Below are positions 10,102 to 25,546 of a DNA stretch of 25,931 nucleotides, piece after piece. Source of the stretch: a virus. Positions within the stretch are counted from its first letter, which is position 1. Every line of letters starts with the position of its first letter. Position numbers and translations under genes: made by a program. The stretch is taken from positions 1 to 25,931 of the IMG/VR virus record IMGVR_UViG_3300017963_000697; one strand, given 5' to 3'. Below the pieces are notes generated by a model. The model saw only the letters and a list, made by a program, of their open reading frames with translations, was not told the DNA's origin and did not search any database.

Positions 10102-11610
10102 TTAATCAAGCAGGGCGGGTTTTAGTGTAGCAGTCCTTGAAGGGTCTTTTACCATCGCACCAGTACCGCACATAGCAGTCATAGTGGCAGAATCCTCCAT
10201 GTGTTGCATAACTCCACCTCGTCGTCCACTGAAAGGATCACGGATACCAGCAAGGTAACCTCTTAGCTCGTCATCTCCACGAACTTTGATCTTTTGGATG
10301 TTAGGCTCTTCCATAGAACCGATGTAAAGAATATCATATCGGTAAGACTCAGCAACACCACCATCTGGGTGAAGAATCTTGTTCCGTACTTTATCATCAT
10401 ACATTGGGTCTACTTCCAACATTACGTGAATGTTGTTAGGAGCTTTCCACTCAGTAAACTGGAATCCAGCTACAAATGCATTTGAATGGAACTTAGAACT
10501 TGTTTGCTTGATAGCAGCGCTACCAGTGTTATCAAATCCTACTGCAGTCCATCCTGAAGCTTCGCGCGTTACTGCACGGTGGAATTGAGCAGCTCCTCTT
10601 TCTCCTGTACGAAGCATAAACTTCCTTTCAGAGAAATCAAGCTTACCTTCTACCAATTCAGATAAAAGATCTTCCAGCATGCGGATAGAGAACTTATTGT
10701 AAGTAGTAGTGTTACTAACTTCCATTTGCTCCCTGATCCCAGAACCAGCTTTAATTTCGATGTTGGAGTTTCCTTTATTAAGGAACCGTCCATTTTGATC
10801 TCTGTTTGTTTTACCAAACATGAGGGTTCTCGCTTTAATACGAGACAATGCTTTTTCAAATTGCCAGTAAACTTCCTGCATCCAAGTCACAGACTTGTGT
10901 ACTTTTCCACTGTTTGGATCTCTGGTTTCAATACCAGCGAAATAAACAGGTTGTACTTTGCAGTCAATCATTGCACCAGATACCTTGTGCTCCATCCTAA
11001 GTGTGGATACACTGTTCCTCATTAAATAAGGAGAGGTAAACTGGATGTCAGCACCACGGGTAGATAGTTCATCTTCCACGTATGCAGACTCAATGCTAAA
11101 TCTGTTTCCAGCTATAAGTTCATCACCTGGTACACCATTTAGAGACTCTTGGCCTCCAAAAACTTCTGCGGTATACACATAGTTACCACCTTCTTCCACT
11201 GCTTCAGAGATCAGCCTAAACTGATAAACATCTGGGCGTGGTCCAGCAATAACATGAACTTGGCTAAAATACTTTTCTCCGAATACCAATTCAATGGTAG
11301 AGCGGGCTGCACCTACACCAGTATCACTGTCTAGAACTGTAGCTCCATTGTAACGAGCCTCTACTAGAGGGATGTTACGCTCGTCTGATCCTACTACTTT
11401 CCATACAAAATCATCAGAAGATTCAAGAACTTTTTCTGGGAACAACGAAAGAGTTGTGTCCAAGTTTTTCATTCCTGAGTTCTGAAGAAGTACAGTTGTA
11501 AGAGGAGAGACAAGTTGAGGCTGAGATCCAAAGATAGCTCCGATGTGGTTCTTTAATGTCAAACCTGACCAGGCTTTTCCCTTGGTCATTACAAACTTTC
11601 CTAAACTCAT
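10102..11610 (-). CDS. Major capsid protein
   Basis: A 502-residue protein in the expected position after portal and scaffold-like genes, and directly before an intrinsic terminator, as befits the most abundant virion protein. The N terminus (MSLGKFVMTKGKAWSGLTLK) leads into a helical arm. Residues 190-330 include YLMRNSVSTLRMEHKVSGAM and a long helix WMQEVYWQFEKALSRIKAR that resembles the HK97-fold spine. A beta-rich P-domain-like part follows. The C-terminal 100 residues (DPMYDDKVRNKILHPDGG, RGYLAGIRDPFSGRRGG) resemble the A-domain of large Bacteroidota-phage capsids of about 500 residues. A distinct prohead-protease gene is not visible next to it. Assignment rests on length, gene order and composition; structure prediction would confirm. 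Confidence 0.75.
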   Translation of the reverse strand: MSLGKFVMTKGKAWSGLTLKNHIGAIFGSQPQLVSPLTTVLLQNSGMKNLDTTLSLFPEKVLESSDDFVWKVVGSDERNIPLVEARYNGATVLDSDTGVGAARSTIELVFGEKYFSQVHVIAGPRPDVYQFRLISEAVEEGGNYVYTAEVFGGQESLNGVPGDELIAGNRFSIESAYVEDELSTRGADIQFTSPYLMRNSVSTLRMEHKVSGAMIDCKVQPVYFAGIETRDPNSGKVHKSVTWMQEVYWQFEKALSRIKARTLMFGKTNRDQNGRFLNKGNSNIEIKAGSGIREQMEVSNTTTYNKFSIRMLEDLLSELVEGKLDFSERKFMLRTGERGAAQFHRAVTREASGWTAVGFDNTGSAAIKQTSSKFHSNAFVAGFQFTEWKAPNNIHVMLEVDPMYDDKVRNKILHPDGGVAESYRYDILYIGSMEEPNIQKIKVRGDDELRGYLAGIRDPFSGRRGGVMQHMEDSATMTAMCGTGAMVKDPSRTATLKPALLD

Positions 11611-11643: not shown

Positions 11644-12834
11644 TTATTCTATTACTAGTTCAGAACCTACTCCACCGTAACTTTCTGGATCAGATAGGAA
11701 CGCTGGTTTGCCATTGTCCTGAAATCTAGTTTTTCTTAATTCTTTTTCTAATTTACTCACTGCAGTGCTTTCGCTTTTGCTAATTACTTTAGAGAAATCT
11801 TTGAATCCCTTAGTGAGTTCGTAGAGGTAATACAGTTTACTGTCAAATTCAATTGGGTTTTCACGCCTGTCTCTCATTAGTTGGTTTTCAGCTACTCCAT
11901 TTGGAGTCTTACCTACTACCTTAGTAATACTGTTATATACTCTATCCTGCATTGCTTTAGTAAGCTTCATGCCAGGAATAAATTCTTTAGAGTTATAGAT
12001 AGAATTTTTTAAGTCATTATCTATCTTCTCTTGTTGCGCCTTTTGAAGCTCTGCTTCTTTTTCGCGTTGTAACGCAACTTGTTCTATTCTTTTAGATTCT
12101 ACTTCTTTAAGACTTTCAAGAGATGCCTTTGCATCTTCTACTAGTTGTTCGTCTCCTAAATCAATAGATTTTTTTAGAATAGCTGCTGCCCTCTTTTCAG
12201 ATAGGCCTTGGCTGACATAATCTTGGTAAATAATTTTCTTACTAAGTTCTATGTCATTTACTAATGTGTCCTCTGTAATATTTTCTAGAGTTTGCACATT
12301 GCTATTATACTGTTGGTACTCTGCAAGACTGATGCCTTTTTCTAAAGCTTCATAACCTTCTGATCCCACCTTTGTAATAAGGTATTCCTTTACTTGGTTA
12401 TTAATTTCACTTTTAAAAGCTTCTGCAAGATCTTCTGCAGTTTCAATCTTGACTTCTTCATCTTGAAGGTCAAGAGAGGGAAGCAATCCCTGTTCGCTAA
12501 GAACTGATGCAAAGGAAGAATATATGGTGGGAGAAACATCTTCTGGGTCTCCCTCTCCTTCACCTTCTCCTTCGCCTACTCCCTCTGAGCTTTCGCCCTC
12601 AGCGTCTGGTTTATCGTTTAAGTAATCATCTAGTCCTTCTGGGGTGTCTCCTTCGCTGCCTTCCGCTGCAGGTTCTGCAGGCTCTTCAGGTTCAGCGGGT
12701 GGAGTAGGATCTGCTCCTTCTTCACCTTCATCTTCTAGACTAGTAATGTCTTCTGTGTCAATTTCTGGGATTGGTGTCATATTTAGTTCCAATCCTTCTG
12801 AGCCAAATATGCTCATTAAGTTTTCATCTTCCAT
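11644..12834 (-). CDS. Scaffold-like acidic coiled-coil protein upstream of the capsid gene
   Basis: A 396-residue protein lying between portal and capsid genes, where head scaffolds are usually encoded. Residues 20-105 are an acidic low-complexity tail (repeated EPEEPAEP, GEGEGEGEGD). Residues 105-310 are mostly charged helix with coiled-coil character (LESLKEVESKRIEQVALQRE). The C-terminal 80 residues are basic-mixed and could contact capsid subunits. A disordered acidic N terminus followed by a long helix and a capsid-binding end is the usual plan of phage scaffolds. It has its own promoter (12861-12891), with the 22-bp box upstream, and gives the first gene of a scaffold-capsid unit ending at the terminator at 10044-10075. 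I see no protease catalytic motif, so a fused maturation protease is not supported. Confidence 0.65.
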   Translation of the reverse strand: MEDENLMSIFGSEGLELNMTPIPEIDTEDITSLEDEGEEGADPTPPAEPEEPAEPAAEGSEGDTPEGLDDYLNDKPDAEGESSEGVGEGEGEGEGDPEDVSPTIYSSFASVLSEQGLLPSLDLQDEEVKIETAEDLAEAFKSEINNQVKEYLITKVGSEGYEALEKGISLAEYQQYNSNVQTLENITEDTLVNDIELSKKIIYQDYVSQGLSEKRAAAILKKSIDLGDEQLVEDAKASLESLKEVESKRIEQVALQREKEAELQKAQQEKIDNDLKNSIYNSKEFIPGMKLTKAMQDRVYNSITKVVGKTPNGVAENQLMRDRRENPIEFDSKLYYLYELTKGFKDFSKVISKSESTAVSKLEKELRKTRFQDNGKPAFLSDPESYGGVGSELVIE

Positions 12835-12860: not shown

Positions 12861-12891
12861 CAAATATAATACATTTTATTAGCAAAGTCAA
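12861..12891 (-). promoter_or_regulatory. Bacteroidota-type promoter of the scaffold-capsid unit
   Basis: On the minus strand TTG (12891-12889, in TTGACTTT) is followed after exactly 20 bp by TATATTTG (12868-12861), the consensus TAnnTTTG. Transcription should start about 20 bases before the ATG at 12834. The leader contains CGGGAGAAA, also found before the 287-residue gene. Confidence 0.85.
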
Positions 12892-12919
12892 TAATTTTTA
12901 TGATTATTTTTAAAAATCA

Positions 12920-12941
12920 TATCATTAACTAATAGCTATTT
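12920..12941 (-). repeat. 22-bp direct repeat, copy 1 (portal 3' end)
   Basis: An exact copy of the box at 15398-15419. The plus-strand core is CATTAACTAATAGCTAT, with TAT before and TT after. It includes the 8-bp palindrome ATAGCTAT and a loose dyad ATTA-N2-TAAT. This copy covers the last Lys codon and stop of the portal gene, and ends 28 bp upstream of the TTG of the promoter at 12861-12891. Possible activator or operator site. Confidence 0.8.
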
Positions 12942-15320
12942 CGATGTAGCTGATTTTGCTTTTGCAGCTGCAACTTTTTTATTTTCTACTTCTATCTGGT
13001 CTTTATGCTGTGTCATCTTATCGTTGAGCTCTCTCATTTTGAGTTCATACTCATTTCTAATTTTTTCAGCATCTAGTCCTATTTTTGCACTTTCAATTGG
13101 GTCAACAATACCATCGTCCATATTAGCTCTTTCTTTAAGCTCTGCTACGTAACGTTGAGTTTCATTGTCACGCATATTAATAGCGTCTTCCAATTCTAAT
13201 TTTTGTTGCTCAAGTTGTGCCCTCTGCTCAAGATCTTGTTGTGCGATCTTATTCTGCATCTCAGCTTGCTTATTATTATTCTCATTAATTTTATCTTCAG
13301 CAATCTCAAGCTTACGTCGCATATCTTGCAGTGATGGACTAAAGTAAATATCCATGATAGTTGCAAAGCTACCACCATTCTGCATAAATGCTTGTGCGTA
13401 TTGTTTTAGACCAGCTTCCAATTCTGCTGCTTTAGCAGAAGCAGTTGCTACAAGACCGTAATCAGCCTCTGCAAAATCATCTCCTTCTACATTAAGCATT
13501 TGGATAGTTTGGTCATCCAGTATATTTTGTGCTTTTTTGTTATTACCTTTTAGTGCAATCTTAGCAGTTTCAAGAAATGCCTCCATTGCTCTAAGTTTAA
13601 CTTTCTCGTGAGTATAGAACCAAAATTCAGTAATATGGGCAGACTGATTAACAGAACGCTCAATACCTCCTTTTGTTTCGTAAGAGCTAATGGCACCTTC
13701 ACGTTGACGTGACACACCAGCAATTTCACTCATTTCCATCTTGATAAACTCAAGAAGTTGTACATGCTGCTGGATATAGTTACCAGTTTCCATATCTATA
13801 GACCTTCCGCCTGTAGTATTCATGGACCCTGCTAGTTTGCCTGTAGCTGCACCGTGGTTACCTTCTTTAAAAGAATCTACAATAGCAAGTTTATTAACTA
13901 CTGCAAAATGTAACCATTTGTCAATTTCCCATCCTTCAGGTATCTTGGCTAAGTCAAGTTCAAAGATCTTACCATAATTAGTAGAGATCGCTTTGTTCAA
14001 CCTATCCCAGATAGTATCATACATATACTGATAGTTTTTACACCTATCCAATAATGATACTGCTTTACCTTGATTAGTATTATAGATTTGGCCTATAATA
14101 CCAGGATGACATACTGATGGGTTATTTAATCTGTTGAACTGAACAGGACGCGGACGCATATTTACATATATGTCTTTTCCTATTTTAGTTCCTTCCCACC
14201 ATTCATTAACCCACATAGAAGTGGATTCTTCGCCCATATCTTTATCTTCGATATATTCTTCTGAGCGAATTTTATATTGTGTATCACCGAACTCGTCGTA
14301 ATACTTTACTTTCTTTACTTTCTTTAGACTTCTCCAGTAAACACGCAAAACTCTGATGTTCCCATTTTCATCGGTGAAATCAGAGCTAAAATAGTGACCA
14401 TTAATCTCTGCAATATTAAACAGAGTATCAAAGCCATCAGAACGTATACCTTCTACATTATCACGAAGTAGAGTGTGATTGCTATCATCATCTGAATATC
14501 TTCCACTAGTTTTAGTAGAAGTATACTCCATGATATAATCAATATCCTCTGGTTTTAATTCGTCGTGATAATAGTCTACAATTTTGCCAGGACTCCAGTG
14601 ATCCTCTAATATAATAATAGATGAATCTTCTATCCTGTCGGAATTACCAGATCTAACAGCGTGGACCTTTAAAGGGTTTAGCTTGTCAAGCACAGGCTCA
14701 GAGTGAACTATATCAACTTGATATATTTCTTCTGCCATAATAAGCGCATCTTTAAACCCGTTGTTAAACTTTTGCTCAAAGTCTTGCTCATTCCAGTAAT
14801 GCCGCAGGATTTGGTTCGCCATTTTCTCGCGAATGTCCTGCCATGAATATTTCATGTAATCCTCAATCTCCTGCATCTTCTTCTCAAGCTCATCTTCTTT
14901 ATAATTAGCTTGGACGAATTCAACTAGCTTTTGAGTCAGGGCTTGCTTCTTAGCTTCTTCTTTTTTAGTAATTGCATCTGCATTAGTCACAATCACATTC
15001 CAATCAAATCTCCTTTTAATTTCTTCACCTACAAGTAGATCAATCTTAGGAACTACAATAGGGTGATGAGGAATATTATCTGGAATAAAGGAAGCATCCA
15101 TCTGATACGGATTGACCGTAGTAGTAAGATCCCTGATATCTACTACGCCATTGTAGAGATTCAGATTTATAACTTTATTTTTAAGACTCTTCCGTACGGA
15201 CTCATTATGATAAAAAGAATGTTTATCAGCATAATCGACATTGTCTTTACGCCAAGGTTTAGTCTTTTTAATATAAGGTAGCCTCTGAGGCGGAAGCGTC
15301 AGAGTATTAATTCTCGCCAT
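12936..15320 (-). CDS. Portal protein
   Basis: A 794-residue protein forming the dodecameric ring through which DNA enters the head. Evidence is its position straight after the large terminase, its length (typical of the large portals of Bacteroidota phages, longer than the common 400-550), and sequence features. Residues 70-115 contain NPYQMDASFIPDNIPHHPIV and PKIDLLVGEEIKRRFDW, a pattern I associate with these portals. There is a long central beta/helix body (WVNEWWEGTKIGKDIYVNM) and a helical C-terminal region (residues 650-780) of Gln/Glu/Lys-rich coiled coil (EQRAQLEQQKLELEDA) that would form the barrel. The region near residue 540 (MSEIAGVSRQREGAISSYET) resembles the portal stem/wing segment. 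It has its own promoter with a very short leader, and its 3' end carries the 22-bp repeat. Confidence 0.85.
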   Translation of the reverse strand: MARINTLTLPPQRLPYIKKTKPWRKDNVDYADKHSFYHNESVRKSLKNKVINLNLYNGVVDIRDLTTTVNPYQMDASFIPDNIPHHPIVVPKIDLLVGEEIKRRFDWNVIVTNADAITKKEEAKKQALTQKLVEFVQANYKEDELEKKMQEIEDYMKYSWQDIREKMANQILRHYWNEQDFEQKFNNGFKDALIMAEEIYQVDIVHSEPVLDKLNPLKVHAVRSGNSDRIEDSSIIILEDHWSPGKIVDYYHDELKPEDIDYIMEYTSTKTSGRYSDDDSNHTLLRDNVEGIRSDGFDTLFNIAEINGHYFSSDFTDENGNIRVLRVYWRSLKKVKKVKYYDEFGDTQYKIRSEEYIEDKDMGEESTSMWVNEWWEGTKIGKDIYVNMRPRPVQFNRLNNPSVCHPGIIGQIYNTNQGKAVSLLDRCKNYQYMYDTIWDRLNKAISTNYGKIFELDLAKIPEGWEIDKWLHFAVVNKLAIVDSFKEGNHGAATGKLAGSMNTTGGRSIDMETGNYIQQHVQLLEFIKMEMSEIAGVSRQREGAISSYETKGGIERSVNQSAHITEFWFYTHEKVKLRAMEAFLETAKIALKGNNKKAQNILDDQTIQMLNVEGDDFAEADYGLVATASAKAAELEAGLKQYAQAFMQNGGSFATIMDIYFSPSLQDMRRKLEIAEDKINENNNKQAEMQNKIAQQDLEQRAQLEQQKLELEDAINMRDNETQRYVAELKERANMDDGIVDPIESAKIGLDAEKIRNEYELKMRELNDKMTQHKDQIEVENKKVAAAKAKSATSK

Positions 15321-15330
15321 AACATGTTAT
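15319..15330. promoter_or_regulatory. 12-bp palindrome overlapping the portal start codon
   Basis: ATAACATGTTAT is a perfect 12-bp palindrome whose last two bases on the minus strand are the AT of the portal ATG. It occupies essentially the whole predicted 5' leader, because the -7 element ends at 15339. It could be an operator or a short RNA hairpin that hides the start codon. Confidence 0.45.
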
Positions 15331-15338
15331 ATAACTCG

Positions 15339-15369
15339 TAAATATAGTGAATTTTTTACCAAAAGTCAA
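15339..15369 (-). promoter_or_regulatory. Bacteroidota-type promoter of the portal gene
   Basis: On the minus strand TTG (15369-15367, in TTGACTTTT) is followed after 20 bp by TATATTTA (15346-15339), one base off TAnnTTTG. The 22-bp box lies exactly 28 bp further upstream, as at the promoter at 12861-12891, and TAAAAATAA is at the same offset in both linkers. Confidence 0.75.
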
Positions 15370-15397
15370 GTGATTTGTAATTTATTTTTAGTTTTGC

Positions 15398-15419
15398 TAT
15401 CATTAACTAATAGCTATTT
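15398..15419 (-). repeat. 22-bp direct repeat, copy 2 (terminase 3' end)
   Basis: Identical over 22 bp to the copy at 12920-12941. It begins inside the terminase stop codon and runs downstream, ending 28 bp before the TTG of the portal promoter. The sequence on either side differs between copies, so the identity is confined to the box, although TAAAAATAA recurs at the same distance downstream of each. Confidence 0.8.
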
Positions 15420-17691
15420 ACTCAAATAAAATCTCTGATTTTGGTCCCTTTTTGTTTTTATAGTTGCGTGTAAAGAACGGATCGTCAGAAACTCTTTTAA
15501 TTTTTTCATCTCCTCTTTCTTTCGCAGCTTTACTTCTTTTGTATTTATCTTCTCTAAGAATAAACAACATAATACCAGCAGAAATTCTATCGAAGTTTCC
15601 ATCAGAATTCCACTTAATTGCTTCTTCAATATACGCAAGACCTCTGAGTCTATGTAAATTTAATCTACCGTCCTCTTCATCTCCGTATGCTTTACTATTC
15701 ATCCAGTCAGCTTGCAATAATCTACCCCATGCATTAACAGGTGCAGATGCTCTCGTACCTTTGGCCTTATTACCGTAGAGGTTAGTGGCTTTTACAAAGT
15801 CCATGTCCTTCAGTATCTGAGGAGTATCCGCTAGGTAATGCAGCATATTATGCTTATCAAAATAATTAAACAGCCCTTTAAGGTTACTTTCGTAATTAGC
15901 TTCTGCATTATAAAACATGCAAGTACGCAATGCTACTTCATATGCTTCATTAGCTGTACGTGGGCGTCCAGAGTATTCTGCTACAATTCTATCAGTAAAT
16001 GTATCAAGTACTAACATAGAGAACAATGATACACCAGTGTCAGCATCAATAGGGTCAATCCCTGCGATATATCTTCCACGCATTACCCGCCCATCTGCAC
16101 TTTTGCGGGGCATTTCAAATATCTCAAGTGCACCAGTTTTATCTCCTGATCCTACATCATAAGATCTAAGTGGTATCTTTTCTGCGTTAGGCTTCCAAAC
16201 TATACTGCCGTCTTGAGCTCTAATTAGTTCACCTGTGTAATGCTCTGCTAAAAAAGAGTCACGTTTTACCATAACTGATTCTAAATATTCTTTAAGATCA
16301 GCTACAGGAAAGACCGTTCCTTCTGTACGCATGACAGCTTCCTGTGGAGTAATAGGTTCTTCTGCTTTCTTCTGTGTCAATGCTCTAGCATCATTAGAAG
16401 AATATTTAACCTTGTATCTATCAAGACAAATCTCAACAAGTGCTTTGATTACATCAGGCTCTCCTATCTCCATATCGTAACATCCGTTACGGTTCATATA
16501 AGCACCCCAAAAGAAACCACAAACAGTTTGTCCATCAGTATTTCTATCAAATACGTTAGGTATTCCATAGATGTTATACGCGTCTGGGGAATAAAATAGT
16601 TTTTCAGATCCTTCAAATGAAGCACCTTCTACACCACCTGTTCCACCAGCAAGCATGTAACCAGAGGCAATACCTCCATCTTCCACGGCTTTCCTGTTTA
16701 CGTTCCAAGCTTTTTCAAGGTTAGGAAATAGTCCATCTTCTTCATAATGAATAAACGGTCCCCTAATACCCCTTGCTTTATCAGGATTATCTTTAAGTGA
16801 TATACCAAATACAGAGGACAAAAATCCTCGTCTAGTACCATACTCATCTTCAAATCCTAACTGAACTTCCATAGATCTTTTACCATCTACTAATCTCATA
16901 CGAGGTAGTGGAGTATGATCTGCAATCCAGTCTAAAGTATCTAGTACCTTTCCCCAGATTCCTTTGTCTCCTGAGAGGAACGCCTTCTCAGATGCGAGAT
17001 GGAAATTAGGATTACCAGAGCCAGGTAGTACATACATATTACGAGGCGACCAAGCACCTGCTTTGAAGGAGAACCCGACTCCCCTTGTCTTGAGGAGTTT
17101 GCCGTGCTTACCTTCTTCTTTGCCTTGATGGACATAGTGAAAAAATAAATAATCACCTAACCAGGGCTTTGGGAATCTTCGGACCCTCTCACCTTTTTTC
17201 TTACCTTTAGTACCCTCTGCCTTTTCAACTAACCAAATAGGGGAGTAGTTCCAATAAAAATATAGCTCGCCAGGAATCCACTCCCCATCAGGTCTTACTA
17301 GTCCATGCTTCCACCTATGTAATTCTTCCTTCCAGAATTGTGCATATTCAGACTTAGGGTTGCCGTTAGGTATAAGGTTTGTGTATCTTCCAGTTTTTTC
17401 AAAGAATAGTGCACGCTCACGAAAGAACTCCATATCCTCTAGGATGTGTGGATTAGCTAGGTCTACTAGCCTACGTCCGTCTTCATACTCTACTTCTTCG
17501 CCTTCATCATTTTCATAGGTCATTACAGGCCTGTCTGCAATGTGCCCACGAACATCTTCAGGTGCAATTAAGTTCTGTATAAATTTTACAGTACTTATGT
17601 ATTCTAATATATTATCGTACACCTCCTTGGGAAGATTCTCTCTGAGTTCTTCCGTTAGAGGCGTTTGATATTTATTCATTTTCATTTCCAT
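15418..17691 (-). CDS. terL: Terminase large subunit (packaging ATPase-nuclease)
   Basis: Up to 757 residues; motor that cuts and pumps phage DNA into the prohead through the portal encoded next. Residues 198-212 (LLKTRGVGFSFKAGA) occupy the Walker A position but lack the usual GK(S/T). Residues about 311-319 (PFIHYEEDG) give the Walker B strand with its acidic pair. The RNase H-like nuclease follows, with IAGIDPIDADTG near residue 545 as the first catalytic aspartate, VAEYSGRP as the next strand, and FDRISAGIM near residue 700 as the last acidic motif. The first ATG is 17691, but the third codon ATG at 17685 overlaps the GroEL stop as ATGA and may be the true start. Cotranscribed with GroEL. 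No separate small subunit is recognised. The 3' end overlaps the 22-bp box. Confidence 0.88.
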   Translation of the reverse strand: MEMKMNKYQTPLTEELRENLPKEVYDNILEYISTVKFIQNLIAPEDVRGHIADRPVMTYENDEGEEVEYEDGRRLVDLANPHILEDMEFFRERALFFEKTGRYTNLIPNGNPKSEYAQFWKEELHRWKHGLVRPDGEWIPGELYFYWNYSPIWLVEKAEGTKGKKKGERVRRFPKPWLGDYLFFHYVHQGKEEGKHGKLLKTRGVGFSFKAGAWSPRNMYVLPGSGNPNFHLASEKAFLSGDKGIWGKVLDTLDWIADHTPLPRMRLVDGKRSMEVQLGFEDEYGTRRGFLSSVFGISLKDNPDKARGIRGPFIHYEEDGLFPNLEKAWNVNRKAVEDGGIASGYMLAGGTGGVEGASFEGSEKLFYSPDAYNIYGIPNVFDRNTDGQTVCGFFWGAYMNRNGCYDMEIGEPDVIKALVEICLDRYKVKYSSNDARALTQKKAEEPITPQEAVMRTEGTVFPVADLKEYLESVMVKRDSFLAEHYTGELIRAQDGSIVWKPNAEKIPLRSYDVGSGDKTGALEIFEMPRKSADGRVMRGRYIAGIDPIDADTGVSLFSMLVLDTFTDRIVAEYSGRPRTANEAYEVALRTCMFYNAEANYESNLKGLFNYFDKHNMLHYLADTPQILKDMDFVKATNLYGNKAKGTRASAPVNAWGRLLQADWMNSKAYGDEEDGRLNLHRLRGLAYIEEAIKWNSDGNFDRISAGIMLFILREDKYKRSKAAKERGDEKIKRVSDDPFFTRNYKNKKGPKSEILFE

Positions 17692-19160
17692 AGTGTTCTA
17701 TCTAATACCATGGCTTCAGCGCCAAGGATTGTAGAAGAAACTGACACAGCGTTACGCAATGCTAGTTTAGTAACTTTAAGCGGATCAATAATATTTTGAT
17801 CAAATCTACTCTCAGTAAAATCAGTATTAATTGTAGAATCAGAATTTACATAAATTGCAAATGATGGATCAAGTAGTGCCATAAGCAACTCTTGGTTTAT
17901 ATCCTCCATATTACAAAGTACGTTATATGCTCTTACTAGAGCAACTCCCCCTCCTTCAACAATACCCTCTTCTAGTGCAGAATTTACTGCCCTTACGGCA
18001 TCATCCATTCTGTCGTATCGTTCTTTCATTTCTATTTCAGAACTTCCTCCCACATAAATAGATGAGGCTTTACCTTCCAGTGCAGCTATTCTAGAATCTA
18101 CCAGATCTTTTCCTGGGCTGTCTTCTAGAGACTCACTATATTGTTTTAACTCATTTATACGTGAAGGGTCTACTGCATCTACAGTTAAGAAAGCATTTTC
18201 AGGATTAACCTCAACTTTAGTCACTTTACCAAGAGTCACAGGAGACGCATATTTTTTGCGAGGGTCTAATACTTTAGCCCCAGTATAATATGCAATATCC
18301 TCTATTAAATCTTTTCTGTGCTTACCAAATCCTGGTGATTTAATTGGTACAATTGTAAGTGCTCCTCTATTGTGGTTATCTTTTAGGAGACTATTAACTT
18401 GTTCCCCAAAATGCTCTGCAATTATTACATAATTATCTTCATTCTCTATTTGTAGTAATCCTGCGATACAATCAAGACTATTGAGCTTTCCATCTACAAC
18501 AATGACGTTAAATGGGTCTTCGTACTTAATAGATTGCTTTTCCATTACGTTGATGAATGCTTTGTCCCAATAAGTGGTTTTAAGCTCCATCCCGTCTGTG
18601 AGCAATAACTCATCTGCTTGTTTGTGTCCTTCGTATACTTTTACAATACCCGAATGGTTGTATGCGTTTGCTATTGTTCTTCCAATTTCCAGATCATTAT
18701 TAGCAGATATAGTTGCTACATCTATTAGCCTTTCCTTAGTAAGAGGCTCTGCTCCTGCTTCAAGTTGCTTAGTAGTTTCAACTAAAATCTTTTCTAGATC
18801 TTTCTTTATTTTGTTATAAGGAGTGCCAGAATCTATAAGTCTAAATCCATTTGTTATAAATGAATTTGCTAGACAAATAGATGTAGTAGTTCCATCTCCT
18901 ACAAGTTTAAGAGTTTTCTCTGCTACCTCTTTAATTAAATCTGCAGCTGTGTTTTCAATAGGGTCTTCAAACTCTATCCTCTTAGCTACACTTACACCGT
19001 CCTTAGTAATATAAGGTGGCTCTATATCTGAAGTAAGTATTACTGTTTTACCAAATGGTCCTAAAGTAGCAATTACTGCACGAGCTAATTTATTAACTCC
19101 TGACAATAATTTGTCACGCAGGACTTCCCCCATTACTATTTCTTTAGCTGATTCTTCCAT
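17682..19160 (-). CDS. groEL: Phage-encoded group I chaperonin GroEL
   Basis: A 492-residue chaperonin, shorter than the usual 540-550. Conserved motifs: TLGPFGKTV (32-40), ITKDGVSVA (51-59), the nucleotide loop GDGTTTS (88-94), TISANND, the apical KSPGFGKHRK, the intermediate-domain VGGSSEIEMKERYDRMDDAV with the catalytic Asp region, and EEGIVEGGGVAL. The second equatorial segment is cut down by roughly 40 residues and the Gly-Met tail is absent (ends VLDRTLWK). Of the apical Y199-Y203-F204 contacts of E. coli GroEL, the middle Tyr is replaced by Ala (YWDKAFIN). I chose ATG at 19160 (MEESAKEI) because the frame upstream, to 19217, only overlaps the previous gene and does not resemble GroEL. 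A GroES-like gene lies three genes upstream. Likely folds capsid or other virion proteins. Confidence 0.93.
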   Translation of the reverse strand: MEESAKEIVMGEVLRDKLLSGVNKLARAVIATLGPFGKTVILTSDIEPPYITKDGVSVAKRIEFEDPIENTAADLIKEVAEKTLKLVGDGTTTSICLANSFITNGFRLIDSGTPYNKIKKDLEKILVETTKQLEAGAEPLTKERLIDVATISANNDLEIGRTIANAYNHSGIVKVYEGHKQADELLLTDGMELKTTYWDKAFINVMEKQSIKYEDPFNVIVVDGKLNSLDCIAGLLQIENEDNYVIIAEHFGEQVNSLLKDNHNRGALTIVPIKSPGFGKHRKDLIEDIAYYTGAKVLDPRKKYASPVTLGKVTKVEVNPENAFLTVDAVDPSRINELKQYSESLEDSPGKDLVDSRIAALEGKASSIYVGGSSEIEMKERYDRMDDAVRAVNSALEEGIVEGGGVALVRAYNVLCNMEDINQELLMALLDPSFAIYVNSDSTINTDFTESRFDQNIIDPLKVTKLALRNAVSVSSTILGAEAMVLDRTLWK

Positions 19161-19716
19161 CTTGGAATCCTTCTTCAAATGTGTTGAACTGTCTCGCTCC
19201 TTTAGTTTTGTTCTCATTATCTTCCTGTTCTTTTACAACTTCTTTATATGCAGATTTTAGGTCAGCCATAAGCTTTGGTACCTTCTGTACTGCGTTAGTA
19301 ATTTTACTAATGTCGTTGACGGGTCTCCCATTATTGTCCCGTTCATATAATAGTGCTTTAGTATTTGCTAGATAGTCTCCAATGTCAGAGGCTGCTTTAA
19401 GTGATTTAGTATAGAGCTGTTCTATTACAGACTCGCTTCTATTACGATAAAAATCAATAGCAGTTGCTACTTCTACATCTACTTGCCAATCTGAGTCTAG
19501 ACCTATATCTTTTTTAATTTCTTCAGTTCTGTCTGTCTCGTCCATGTGCAAGTAATTAGACTTAACATCAGCAAAATAGTAGACAAACAACATTTCTTTT
19601 ATAGCTTGTTCTTTGTCTTTACTTTTGTCTCTATCTAGAATTACTTTAAATGGCAGTAGCCCCCAAGCTTCCTCGGAGACTACTAATTGCCATTTTTCAA
19701 TTTTAAATAATTTCAT
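19144..19716 (-). CDS. Conserved Bacteroidota-phage protein upstream of GroEL/terminase
   Basis: A 190-residue charged, mostly helical protein beginning MKLFKIEKWQLVVSEEAWGL. Further segments are LDRDKSKDKEQAIKEMLFVY, a WQVDVEVATAIDFYRNRSES helix, and a C-terminal helix MADLKSAYKEVVKEQEDNEN ending FNTFEEGFQDGRIS. I recall similar proteins next to terminase genes of other Bacteroidota phages, without known function. No HTH, zinc or enzyme motif is visible. Its end overlaps the GroEL start by 17 bases, so translation is coupled. Being a helical protein encoded just before the terminase, a small terminase subunit or assembly factor is possible, but this is weak inference from position. Confidence 0.55.
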   Translation of the reverse strand: MKLFKIEKWQLVVSEEAWGLLPFKVILDRDKSKDKEQAIKEMLFVYYFADVKSNYLHMDETDRTEEIKKDIGLDSDWQVDVEVATAIDFYRNRSESVIEQLYTKSLKAASDIGDYLANTKALLYERDNNGRPVNDISKITNAVQKVPKLMADLKSAYKEVVKEQEDNENKTKGARQFNTFEEGFQDGRIS

Positions 19717-20477: not shown

Positions 20478-20761
20478 TTTTTATCGTTTAAATTTGTAAA
20501 ATGCTTCTTTTGTTTCTTCATTCGCCTAAATAAAGGCTCATGTAAATATAATTTCCCAAATGATTTATAAAGGAAATTTGTTTTCAATTCTGCCAGGTCT
20601 TCTTCTTCTACTTCATTAAATTTAATCTCACGAATCTTTAAGTACGAAAACAAAAAGGGAGACTCTACAATAGTTCTGATGTCTTCGTCTGACATCTTGT
20701 ATTTCAATCCTAATGTATGTATTAAGTTCTTAACCTTTTTCTTGTCTGTCGAACTACTCAT
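20459..20761 (-). CDS. Conserved small phage protein, unknown function
   Basis: A 100-residue basic protein with a helical N-terminal domain: KKKVKNLIHTLGLKYKMSDE, then IRTIVESPFLFSYLKIREI. It resembles small proteins I recall from many Bacteroidota phages with the pattern LGLKY-x-(M/L)-x-x-x-x-(I/V)-x-x-IVESPF-x-F, followed by an F-x-YK-x-x-G-K-L-Y-x-H segment (here FLYKSFGKLYLHEP). The Lys-rich tail (MKKQKKHFTNLNDKKWKNKN) suggests nucleic-acid or virion contact. It overlaps both neighbours by a few bases. I cannot assign a role. Confidence 0.6.
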   Translation of the reverse strand: MSSSTDKKKVKNLIHTLGLKYKMSDEDIRTIVESPFLFSYLKIREIKFNEVEEEDLAELKTNFLYKSFGKLYLHEPLFRRMKKQKKHFTNLNDKKWKNKN

Positions 20762-21113
20762 GGATTATATTGAAGTTAAAAATTACTTTAAAATCTTTTG
20801 CTCCTGGTTCCAAGTTAGGAATAAATGTTGGTGTTATTTCATTTTTATCATTAATTATATTACGTTTACGAAACAGTGTTAATACATTTTGCAGTCCTGC
20901 GTTCTTAATCCCCAGCTCTTTTTCTATTAGGAGCTTGGTATCATAATCAAATACTAGCTTCCAGAGGATCTTATCATTTGTAATTTCTTGTTTATACTTA
21001 TAATGATAATATAAGAATAACGCTAATACTTGCTTTTGTTGGTTTGTGAGATTGTGAAAAGAGCTTGTAATATCTAACCACTTCAGGAATAAATCCTTCA
21101 GTGTGATATTCAT
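20754..21113 (-). CDS. Conserved phage protein with possible winged-helix architecture
   Basis: About 119 residues from ATG at 21113 (MNITLKDLFLKWLDITSSFH). I chose this start because it follows the PhoH stop as TAATATG, a spacing used elsewhere in the window; a longer frame from 21137 adds eight residues that overlap PhoH. The body is helical (LTNQQKQVLALFLYYHYKYK), then ITNDKILWKLVFDYDTKLLI, then a helix-turn-helix-like KELGIKNAGLQNVLTLFRKR followed by a beta hairpin (NIINDKNEITPTFIP), and ends with the aromatic strand FKVIFNFNI. This recalls a family common near PhoH or terminase genes of Bacteroidota phages. The HTH-wing order suggests DNA binding, perhaps regulation of late genes, but there is no direct evidence. 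Confidence 0.55.
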   Translation of the reverse strand: MNITLKDLFLKWLDITSSFHNLTNQQKQVLALFLYYHYKYKQEITNDKILWKLVFDYDTKLLIEKELGIKNAGLQNVLTLFRKRNIINDKNEITPTFIPNLEPGAKDFKVIFNFNIIHE

Positions 21114-21114
21114 A

Positions 21115-21783
21115 TTAGCTTGTTTTACGTTTTTCATCCTTCTCTAAAAATCTAATTATTTTAGTAAGTGTATCATTTCTGTGGTTTGCTGTTAATACAT
21201 TAAACCCTACAAAATCAGTAGCACTTAGTTTGTTGGCAGACCATATACAGGAATCTTTCCCGATTGTTTTATCTACCTGTTGAATACTGCCACACAAGAT
21301 CATTTTACTGTCCTTGCCTAAGCGCGTAAGTATAGTTCTGAAGTCTGCGTAATCCATGTCTTGAAATTCATCGACAATTACAACAGAGTCCATGAAGGTT
21401 ACTCCTTTCGCTACGTCTACTGGCATGATTTCTATTTCTCCCTTTTCCATCATTCTCTGAGTAGCAGCTTTACCTTGCACCACTTCTAAATTTTGAATGA
21501 TTGGAAATATATATGGAAACATTTTTTCTTCTACTGTTCCTGGTAGAGCCGCTAGCTTATTCTTTAGCATTGGGCGTGTAATCCATATTTTGTTAAACTG
21601 CTTCTTTCTGTAAGCAGCGATTGCAGCGTATACTGCAGTTAGTGATTTTCCTGAGCCAAAATCTCCAAGAATGAAGTTAACGTCGTGCTTGTAAAAGTCT
21701 TTTATAACGTCCTTCTGCTCTTCGGTCAGCTGTACTTTAAGTCTAGGCTCTGTCTTCAGTTTGCGTTTGTTCTTGTTCTCCAT
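21115..21783 (-). CDS. phoH: PhoH-family P-loop ATPase
   Basis: A 222-residue cytoplasmic ATPase. Walker A is GDFGSGKS (residues 40-47) and Walker B is VVIVDEFQD (residues 134-142, acidic pair D138-E139). A sensor-like ILCGSIQQVD motif and a C-terminal arginine-rich end follow. The pattern FILGDFGSGKSLTAVYAA, then IWITRPML, then VVIVDEFQDMD is that of PhoH-like proteins (related to the ATPase half of superfamily 1 helicases), common in phages of marine and gut bacteria. The role in phages is unsettled; links to phosphate stress, RNA or nucleotide metabolism have been proposed. It overlaps the upstream zinc-ribbon gene by 41 bases. No PIN domain is present, so it is the short phage form. Confidence 0.88.
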   Translation of the reverse strand: MENKNKRKLKTEPRLKVQLTEEQKDVIKDFYKHDVNFILGDFGSGKSLTAVYAAIAAYRKKQFNKIWITRPMLKNKLAALPGTVEEKMFPYIFPIIQNLEVVQGKAATQRMMEKGEIEIMPVDVAKGVTFMDSVVIVDEFQDMDYADFRTILTRLGKDSKMILCGSIQQVDKTIGKDSCIWSANKLSATDFVGFNVLTANHRNDTLTKIIRFLEKDEKRKTS

Positions 21784-23991: not shown

Positions 23992-24022
23992 CAAATGTAC
24001 GAAATTTTTTTGACATATGCAA
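23992..24022 (-). promoter_or_regulatory. Bacteroidota-type promoter of the PhoH-chaperonin operon
   Basis: On the minus strand TTG (24022-24020) is followed after exactly 20 bp by TACATTTG (23999-23992), a perfect TAnnTTTG. It lies between the terminator at 24051-24074 and the ATG at 23941. Unlike three other promoters here, the -33 region is TTGCATAT rather than TTGACTTT, and no 22-bp box is present. Confidence 0.85.
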
Positions 24023-24752: not shown

Positions 24753-24937
24753 CTATTCATTAAATGTTTAAAATCGATTACTTCTCTATTAGCTAGTTTT
24801 TTATACATAGCTTCTGCAGCATCAATATTCTCATTGAGTTCGTCCCTCATGTCCGAAGGCATACCTGCAGCTCTTAGCAGTTGATTATATACTGCTATAA
24901 TGTGTTGTAGTTGTTCTAAGATTTGGTGTTTGTCCAA
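24749..24937 (-). CDS. Small helical protein
   Basis: A 62-residue protein made of two helices with a turn: MDKHQILEQLQHIIAVYNQL, then DMRDELNENIDAAEAMYKKL. Leu/Ile spacing in the first suggests a helical hairpin or coiled coil. It overlaps the membrane protein gene upstream by 22 bases and the metallopeptidase gene downstream by ATGA, so the three are one unit. No family recognised; an adaptor or inhibitor for the peptidase is possible but untested. Confidence 0.6.
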   Translation of the reverse strand: MDKHQILEQLQHIIAVYNQLLRAAGMPSDMRDELNENIDAAEAMYKKLANREVIDFKHLMNR

Positions 24938-25509
24938 TGTTCTATATATTTAAGTTTATTTCTTTTTAGTTTTAAGTCTAGGTATGGTTCACCTCTTTGG
25001 TTCCATCCTGCCTTTATTGTTATTAGGAGGTATTTAGTTATCTTTGCTAAAGTGAATCTCCAGTACTTTTTTCCATTAGGCGCTTTCCACCTAAAGAATT
25101 CAGATCCCACTCGACTCTTAGCCTCATCTAATCTCTGTCCTACATTGAATGTCCAGTCCGACACCCACTGTCCATCGATCAGTTGTTCCCAGCGGAATTT
25201 ATATTCAGGAGGTAATGTCAGTCCTACAGTAGATGCTCTAAGGTAGTAGTAGTTTAAATTAAAACTATTGTTCCTCCACAGCGACCAGCGAACAGCCGAC
25301 CAAAAGGAAGGTTTTAATCCCTTATCTCTTAACCAGTACTCTTCACCAAAGTCCGTTTCATCATTTAACCATACCCAAAGGAACCAAGCATAAATAGACT
25401 TGTCCATGTGCTTACGTGCCCAGCCCCTACAAATAAATGCTAAGGGCCATACAAAATGTGACACAATATATGCCACGGCTTTCAATAATATTACTCCTAT
25501 CCATTTCAT
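24916..25509 (-). CDS. Conserved phage membrane-anchored protein, almost leaderless
   Basis: A 197-residue protein. Residues 4-27 form a hydrophobic anchor (LLKAVAYIVSHFVWPLAFIC). The rest is Trp/Tyr/Arg-rich with YAWFLWVWLNDETDFGEEYW, then AVRWSLWRNNSFNLNYYYLR, and a C-terminal part of strands and basic loops (KITKYLLITIKAGWNQRGEP). The W-x-LWRN-(8-10)-Y pattern recalls a family of phage membrane proteins I have seen in several Bacteroidota and enterobacterial phages, of unknown role. The nearest upstream promoter's -7 element ends only six bases before this ATG, so the mRNA probably begins at or within a few bases of the start codon. First gene of the metallopeptidase unit. Confidence 0.6.
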   Translation of the reverse strand: MKWIGVILLKAVAYIVSHFVWPLAFICRGWARKHMDKSIYAWFLWVWLNDETDFGEEYWLRDKGLKPSFWSAVRWSLWRNNSFNLNYYYLRASTVGLTLPPEYKFRWEQLIDGQWVSDWTFNVGQRLDEAKSRVGSEFFRWKAPNGKKYWRFTLAKITKYLLITIKAGWNQRGEPYLDLKLKRNKLKYIEHWTNTKS

Positions 25510-25515
25510 AATCTA

Positions 25516-25546
25516 CAAATATACAACATTAAAACTCAAAAGTCAA
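25516..25546 (-). promoter_or_regulatory. Bacteroidota-type promoter, probably leaderless transcript
   Basis: On the minus strand TTG (25546-25544, in TTGACTTTTGAG) is followed after 20 bp by TATATTTG (25523-25516). The ATG at 25509 is only six bases further on. The next downstream Met is 34 residues in, beyond the membrane anchor, so the first ATG is the likely start. Confidence 0.85.

Follow-up and report, generated by a model that had tools for sequence, protein, structure and literature searches.

Two head-gene promoters in a genome fragment from a crAss-like phage of environmental origin, a 25.9-kb virus record analyzed over all of its 25,931 nucleotides (hereafter the window), carry the same upstream box, which is a real, rigidly spaced, and selectively placed promoter element. 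Judging from sequence comparisons among relatives, the box is probably the site of a phage-encoded DNA-binding protein acting on the host RNA polymerase at head-gene promoters and often at the promoter of a noncoding RNA (ncRNA).

The terminase, portal, and major head proteins matched crAss-type PHROGs in a PHROG search, placing the source phage in the Crassvirales. Its nearest named records belong to the Steigviridae/Asinivirinae, and the closest cultured relative found was Cellulophaga phage phi14:2 (Crassvirales, Steigviridae). The hosts of the named relatives are Bacteroidota. For comparison, relatives were found at well over 100 loci in scans of viral contigs. The genes around the box are as follows.

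10102 to 11610, minus strand: major head protein (phrog_11589, E = 5e-143).
11644 to 12834, minus strand: p3, the gene between the portal and the major capsid protein, with a homologue in 16/16 genomes, in phi14:2, and in crAss001.
12936 to 15320, minus strand: portal protein (phrog_6547, E = 9e-163; 59.8% identity to that of phi14:2).
15418 to 17691, minus strand: terminase large subunit (phrog_6681, E = 4e-97).

The late block of the window also encodes a GroEL-like chaperonin (17682 to 19217) and a PhoH-like protein (21115 to 21783); in crAss001, no homologue of GroEL was found.

The initial annotation had reported an identical 22-bp repeat, and TATCATTAACTAATAGCTATTT does occur exactly at both places, with no further match of up to three mismatches elsewhere in the window or in 100 dinucleotide shuffles. 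The two-copy box is a correct observation, far beyond chance. Since the genes and both box promoters lie on the minus strand, its functional reading is AAATAGCTATTAGTTAATGATA. The geometry had been described accurately as well: exactly 28 bp separate the box from the TTG at both copies, TAAAAATAA begins at offset 7 of both linkers, and both promoters read TTG-N20-TATATTT. The box had also been located at the 3′ ends of the portal and terminase genes, which holds with the refinement that one copy overlaps the portal stop codon and the other abuts that of the terminase; the promoters downstream of the boxes serve the portal and p3-capsid genes, not portal and terminase. The gapless similarity of the two copies extends over ca. 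80 nt at 71% identity and is complete in the box only. The two other promoters of the window, said to lack the box, are strong, lie on the minus strand, and are indeed box free. The promoters have the features of the Bacteroidota housekeeping type, i.e., TTG, a gap of 19 to 21 bp, and TAnnTTT(G) near the gene start, as do many in the relatives.

12861 to 12891, minus strand: promoter of p3 and the major capsid gene, TTG at 12889-12891, N20, and TATATTTG at 12861-12868 (Bacteroidota-type -33/-7, score 22.2).
12900 to 12920, minus strand: AT-rich hairpin ATGATT...AATCAT between box and -33, at copy 1 only (fold z = -3.9).
12920 to 12941, minus strand: box copy 1, upstream of the p3-major capsid promoter (exact repeat; 22.4 bits, spacing 68; contains the portal stop codon).
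15339 to 15369, minus strand: portal promoter, TTG at 15367-15369, N20, and TATATTTA at 15339-15346 (score 15.4).
15398 to 15419, minus strand: box copy 2, upstream of the portal promoter (exact repeat; 22.4 bits, spacing 68; abuts the terminase stop codon).
23992 to 24022, minus strand: box-free control promoter, -7 at 23999 (score 17.2, box score -32).
25516 to 25546, minus strand: box-free control promoter upstream of 24916-25509, -7 at 25523 (score 22.9, box score -19).

Among the relatives the box is degenerate, with the core AGCTATTA and the consensus AAtAGCTATTA(G/C), followed by an A-tract (AAAATAA) at +25 to +31, TTG at +44, and TATATTTG at +67. The A-tract explains the common motif noticed in both linkers of the window, and because a similar tract is also found at promoters without the box, it is a feature of this type of promoter and not of the box. 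In an unselected search for GCTAT, its distance to TAnnTTT was 66 to 68 bp in 56/77 portal-end loci and 28/86 terminase-end loci, while that to the preceding gene's stop codon ranged from -12 to +67. Spacings of 86 bp in this search were an artifact in which a later -7 match had been chosen (the site concerned in G005 is at 67). With matrices for the box, -33, and -7, the box was found at 66 to 68 bp in 73 of 93 nonredundant promoter loci, and in five loci (L015, L077, L081, L082, and L089) it lies within the terminase gene. The position of the box is tied to the promoter and independent of where the upstream gene ends, and in most loci its distance to -7 is fixed, as expected of a class I-type upstream activator site. 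Some of the departures are whole helical turns, as in L077, both promoters of which have the box at 46 bp, two turns (21 bp) closer, and in L125 and L129 (47 bp); the p3 promoter of L091 does not fit, since its 61 bp are about half a turn off, so that the face-of-helix rule is not strict. Since only sites spaced at exactly 67 bp went into training the box matrix, the spacing rests on the unselected count, on the ncRNA promoters, and on a collection scan with a shifted control (the latter two described below). Phage phi14:2 resembles the window in having the box at both promoters at 68 bp, in the variant AAACGCTATTAAAA, and no box was found in the distant relatives crAss001 and cr111_1.

In this large group of crAss-like phages the box stands before only two or three promoters, and its presence divides promoters sharply. 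Of 89 strong promoters in 15 near-complete genomes, 31 have the box, all at 66 to 68 bp, and the scores split cleanly (at least 9.9 bits for these 31, at most 6.7 bits for the other 58). The box promoters comprise 14 of p3, 9 of portal, and 8 at a locus that has no long open reading frame (ORF). Strong promoters without the box precede other virion-region genes and a gene for one subunit of the virion RNA polymerase (crAss001 Gp45 and Gp50 homologues), so the box is not a general late-gene signal. The proposal that it is specific to morphogenesis genes is not supported, on two counts: a third site drives an ncRNA locus in half of the genomes, and both other structural genes and RNA polymerase genes have strong box-free promoters. 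Scanning 2.9 million viral contigs for AGCTATTA-N37-TTG-N20-TATATTTG retrieved 62 matches, 42 of them unique, namely, 34 at p3/major capsid protein genes, 4 at portal genes, 2 at the RNA, a truncated copy at the 3′ end of a portal gene, and a match preceding a GIY-YIG-like gene. Shortening the first gap by 5 bp left a single unique match, in coding DNA. The window itself, with 68 bp, does not match this exact pattern. The module before the GIY-YIG-like endonuclease gene (L230:297-372 and L251:3402-3477) is the sole unique one away from head genes and the RNA.

The initial annotation had suggested looking in related phages for the core at a fixed spacing, and there the spacing proved rigid across dozens of them, with the copies before promoters. 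It had also named what would speak against a regulatory role of the box, i.e., promoters retained without the box or its spacing, or copies inside genes without promoters, and the outcome favors such a role. A mobile or replication repeat was rejected, as only 5 of the 22 box-like sequences of at least 16 bits in 16 genomes lacked a promoter.

At the locus with no long ORF, most of the box promoters precede a structured RNA of ca. 165 to 187 nt that is common to 14 sequences from relatives. The promoters of this RNA were not used in training the box matrix and form an independent set; the box stands at 66 to 67 bp in all 13 for which the upstream DNA could be assessed. A 5′ hairpin and a long-range stem are predicted for the RNA, the latter with two-sided changes at four base pairs. 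Searches of Rfam gave nothing credible even at a permissive threshold, and the RNA model matched neither the window nor the phi14:2 stretch searched (L221). Representative positions are as follows.

L018:2203-2374, L034:681-850, L045:980-1145, L049:1458-1626, L096:2255-2420: ncRNA examples.
L103:1961-2138, L106:3345-3527, L108:3253-3422, L118:3562-3731, and others: further ncRNA examples.
L199 (G013:7402, minus strand), L168 (G002:99233, minus strand), L207/L121 (G014:71878, plus strand): alternative noncoding stretches.

These are two other, unrelated-looking noncoding sequences behind the box promoter at this locus, one in G013 and one in G002 and G014. The second is conserved between G002 and G014, where an apparent endonuclease-type ORF follows. 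In L096 a tRNA lies between the box promoter and the ncRNA. Other RNAs met in these contigs were phage-encoded tmRNA genes (Rfam RF00023; L139:19054-19370, L147:15075-15413, and L198:6151-6514) and, in a crAss-like phage, a Hatchet ribozyme (Rfam RF02678; L174:824-974, minus strand) ca. 1 kb from the ncRNA promoter.

The box varies between genomes at positions -2, -1, +5, and +7 to +13, and this variation is coordinated within genomes. Over columns -2 to +13, the portal and p3 promoters agreed at 0.695 within and 0.535 between genomes (permutation P < 5e-5, although permutation does not fully remove shared ancestry), while columns 19 to 25, just downstream of the box, showed no within-genome agreement. 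The covariation also holds between the RNA and p3 sites, and it persisted when the set was thinned to 12 divergent genomes, in which the effect on the spacer was only small. Spacing follows the same pattern, with agreement of 92% within and 69% between genomes (paired values are 68/68 in the window and phi14:2, 66/66 in G001, and 46/46 in L077). Boxes that are alike within a genome and unlike between genomes, next to DNA that is not, point to a trans-acting factor carried by the phage lineage. The initial annotation had left the choice between a phage and a host factor, and this covariation makes a phage factor the best reading.

Host RNA polymerase is reported to be the likely enzyme for late transcription in crAss001 and phi14:2 (PMC8375218; PMC10136315). 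At the box promoters, a phage-encoded factor would bind the box, probably as a dimer (some variants have the half-symmetry ATTAnnTAAT), on a single face of the helix and ca. 70 bp ahead of the likely start site, as class I activators such as CRP do. Once bound, it would recruit or stabilize the host RNA polymerase, perhaps assisted by the A-tract midway, and the head proteins and the RNA would be made late and in quantity. The box had been proposed to be an activator or operator site; that it is a promoter-linked regulatory site stands, given its rigid spacing and its absence from other promoters, while activation over repression is what we infer. Activation is the most likely effect: the orientation, the fixed distance of ca. 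70 bp, and the mostly helix-phased variants (46/47 and 67, but not 61) suggest an activator touching the polymerase. Against it, the box promoters have good -33 and -7 elements, so an activator might not be needed.

The same apparent strength could indicate that the box is instead the operator of a phage-encoded repressor keeping the head genes off until replication is done, to which its specificity, its restriction to a phage lineage, and the covariation would apply equally well. The site of a simple repressor usually overlaps the core promoter, and changes in its spacing are tolerated, whereas this site is fixed ca. 67 bp upstream of -7, hardly varies in spacing, and is mostly helix phased, as is typical of activators; repression is unlikely, if worth weighing. 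A regulator of the host whose site the phage has adopted would suit the host-type promoters and the Bacteroidota hosts of the named relatives, and differences in host between phages could mimic the covariation. However, variants common to the sites of one phage genome and differing between phages fit a phage-borne factor better, and we consider a host regulator improbable.

Two further readings deny the box any role in promoter control. Because it lies at gene ends in most genomes, and a stable hairpin occurs between box and -33 in about a third of 62 sites, it might be a terminator or an RNA 3′-end processing signal of the upstream gene. Yet an intrinsic terminator would have a stable hairpin followed by a T-run at each site, and about two-thirds of these sites have no significant hairpin. 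The box can also be inside the terminase gene or, at the RNA locus, follow noncoding DNA, and its distance to the stop codon, unlike that to the promoter, varies widely. This highly improbable reading was rejected, as the spacing tracks the promoter rather than the gene end. Inverted repeats of varying sequence, often overlapping -33, were seen between box and -33 in the window (12900-12920) and in L037, L057, L064, L079, L107, L109, and L128, and these may terminate transcription of the upstream gene or serve as additional operators. The identity of the window copies within a common gapless frame of 80 nt could also mark a functionless remnant of promoter duplication kept alike by gene conversion. 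This is barely credible, as the homogenization is almost wholly limited to the box columns, ordinary recombination would need a longer tract, and dozens of divergent phages have retained the module.

As for the phage factor favored here, one protein of the window is the best candidate.

20754 to 21137, minus strand: winged-helix-like protein of 127 residues, candidate box-binding factor, homologous by alignment to crAss001 Gp13 and phi14:2 gp109.

Homologues are present in 16/16 genomes, and crAss001 Gp13 is annotated as a "VpsT-like transcriptional regulator." AlphaFold2 gave a high-confidence helical model (pLDDT 93), for which Foldseek returned only weak MarR/SlyA-type winged-helix matches (probability ca. 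0.5), and there was no Pfam match, LuxR/GerE (the VpsT-like family) included. Both crAss001 and cr111_1 have a homologue though they are box free, which leaves two options, a different site for the crAss001 protein or a different protein as the factor. In partial Mantel tests over 12 flanking and 44 core families, no protein stood out; terminase, portal, HU/IHF-like, zinc-ribbon-like, and winged-helix proteins alike ranked fairly high. Pfam and PHROG scans found no clear DNA-binding family among the small core proteins and named no phi29 p4, Mu C, or P2 Ogr among the candidate and its neighbors. The fuller proposal for this branch of crAss-like phages, a dedicated switch for head assembly in which a new winged-helix activator coevolving with the box turns on only the portal and capsid promoters and a hitherto undescribed structured RNA acting in head assembly or packaging, is distinctly unlikely.

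In crAss-like phages, the virion RNA polymerase transcribes the early genes, and the host enzyme presumably the late ones; the papers searched contained no late control element for this group. For late-gene switching in these phages there are now a precise element, a spacing rule, and targets, and since the group includes the cultured phi14:2, the question of late control is directly testable. The box promoters also exposed a conserved phage RNA outside Rfam.

Among known systems, the box resembles the p4 site of the Bacillus phage phi29, where a phage activator works at a host-polymerase late promoter (A3) from well upstream of the core promoter. Phage phi29 has a single such late promoter with a poor -35, whereas here there are two or three with a good -33, in another phylum and with another sequence. 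In Escherichia coli, CRP class I sites lie at helix-phased distances of ca. -60 to -90, but CRP is a cellular global regulator and the box is phage-lineage-specific with two or three targets. In phage P2, the Ogr protein turns on a few late promoters by way of a conserved site upstream of them. Likewise, Mu C is one phage protein that activates a few late promoters via a conserved upstream site (PMC4461284), and p4, according to the same source, acts through the polymerase alpha subunit (PMC4461284). The sites of Mu C and Ogr differ from the box in adjoining or lying nearer -35, and sequence, distance, and host polymerase differ too. Activator sites of phage late promoters are thus already known from phi29 and Mu, while this sequence, its spacing, its targets, and the host phylum are new as far as the searched papers show.
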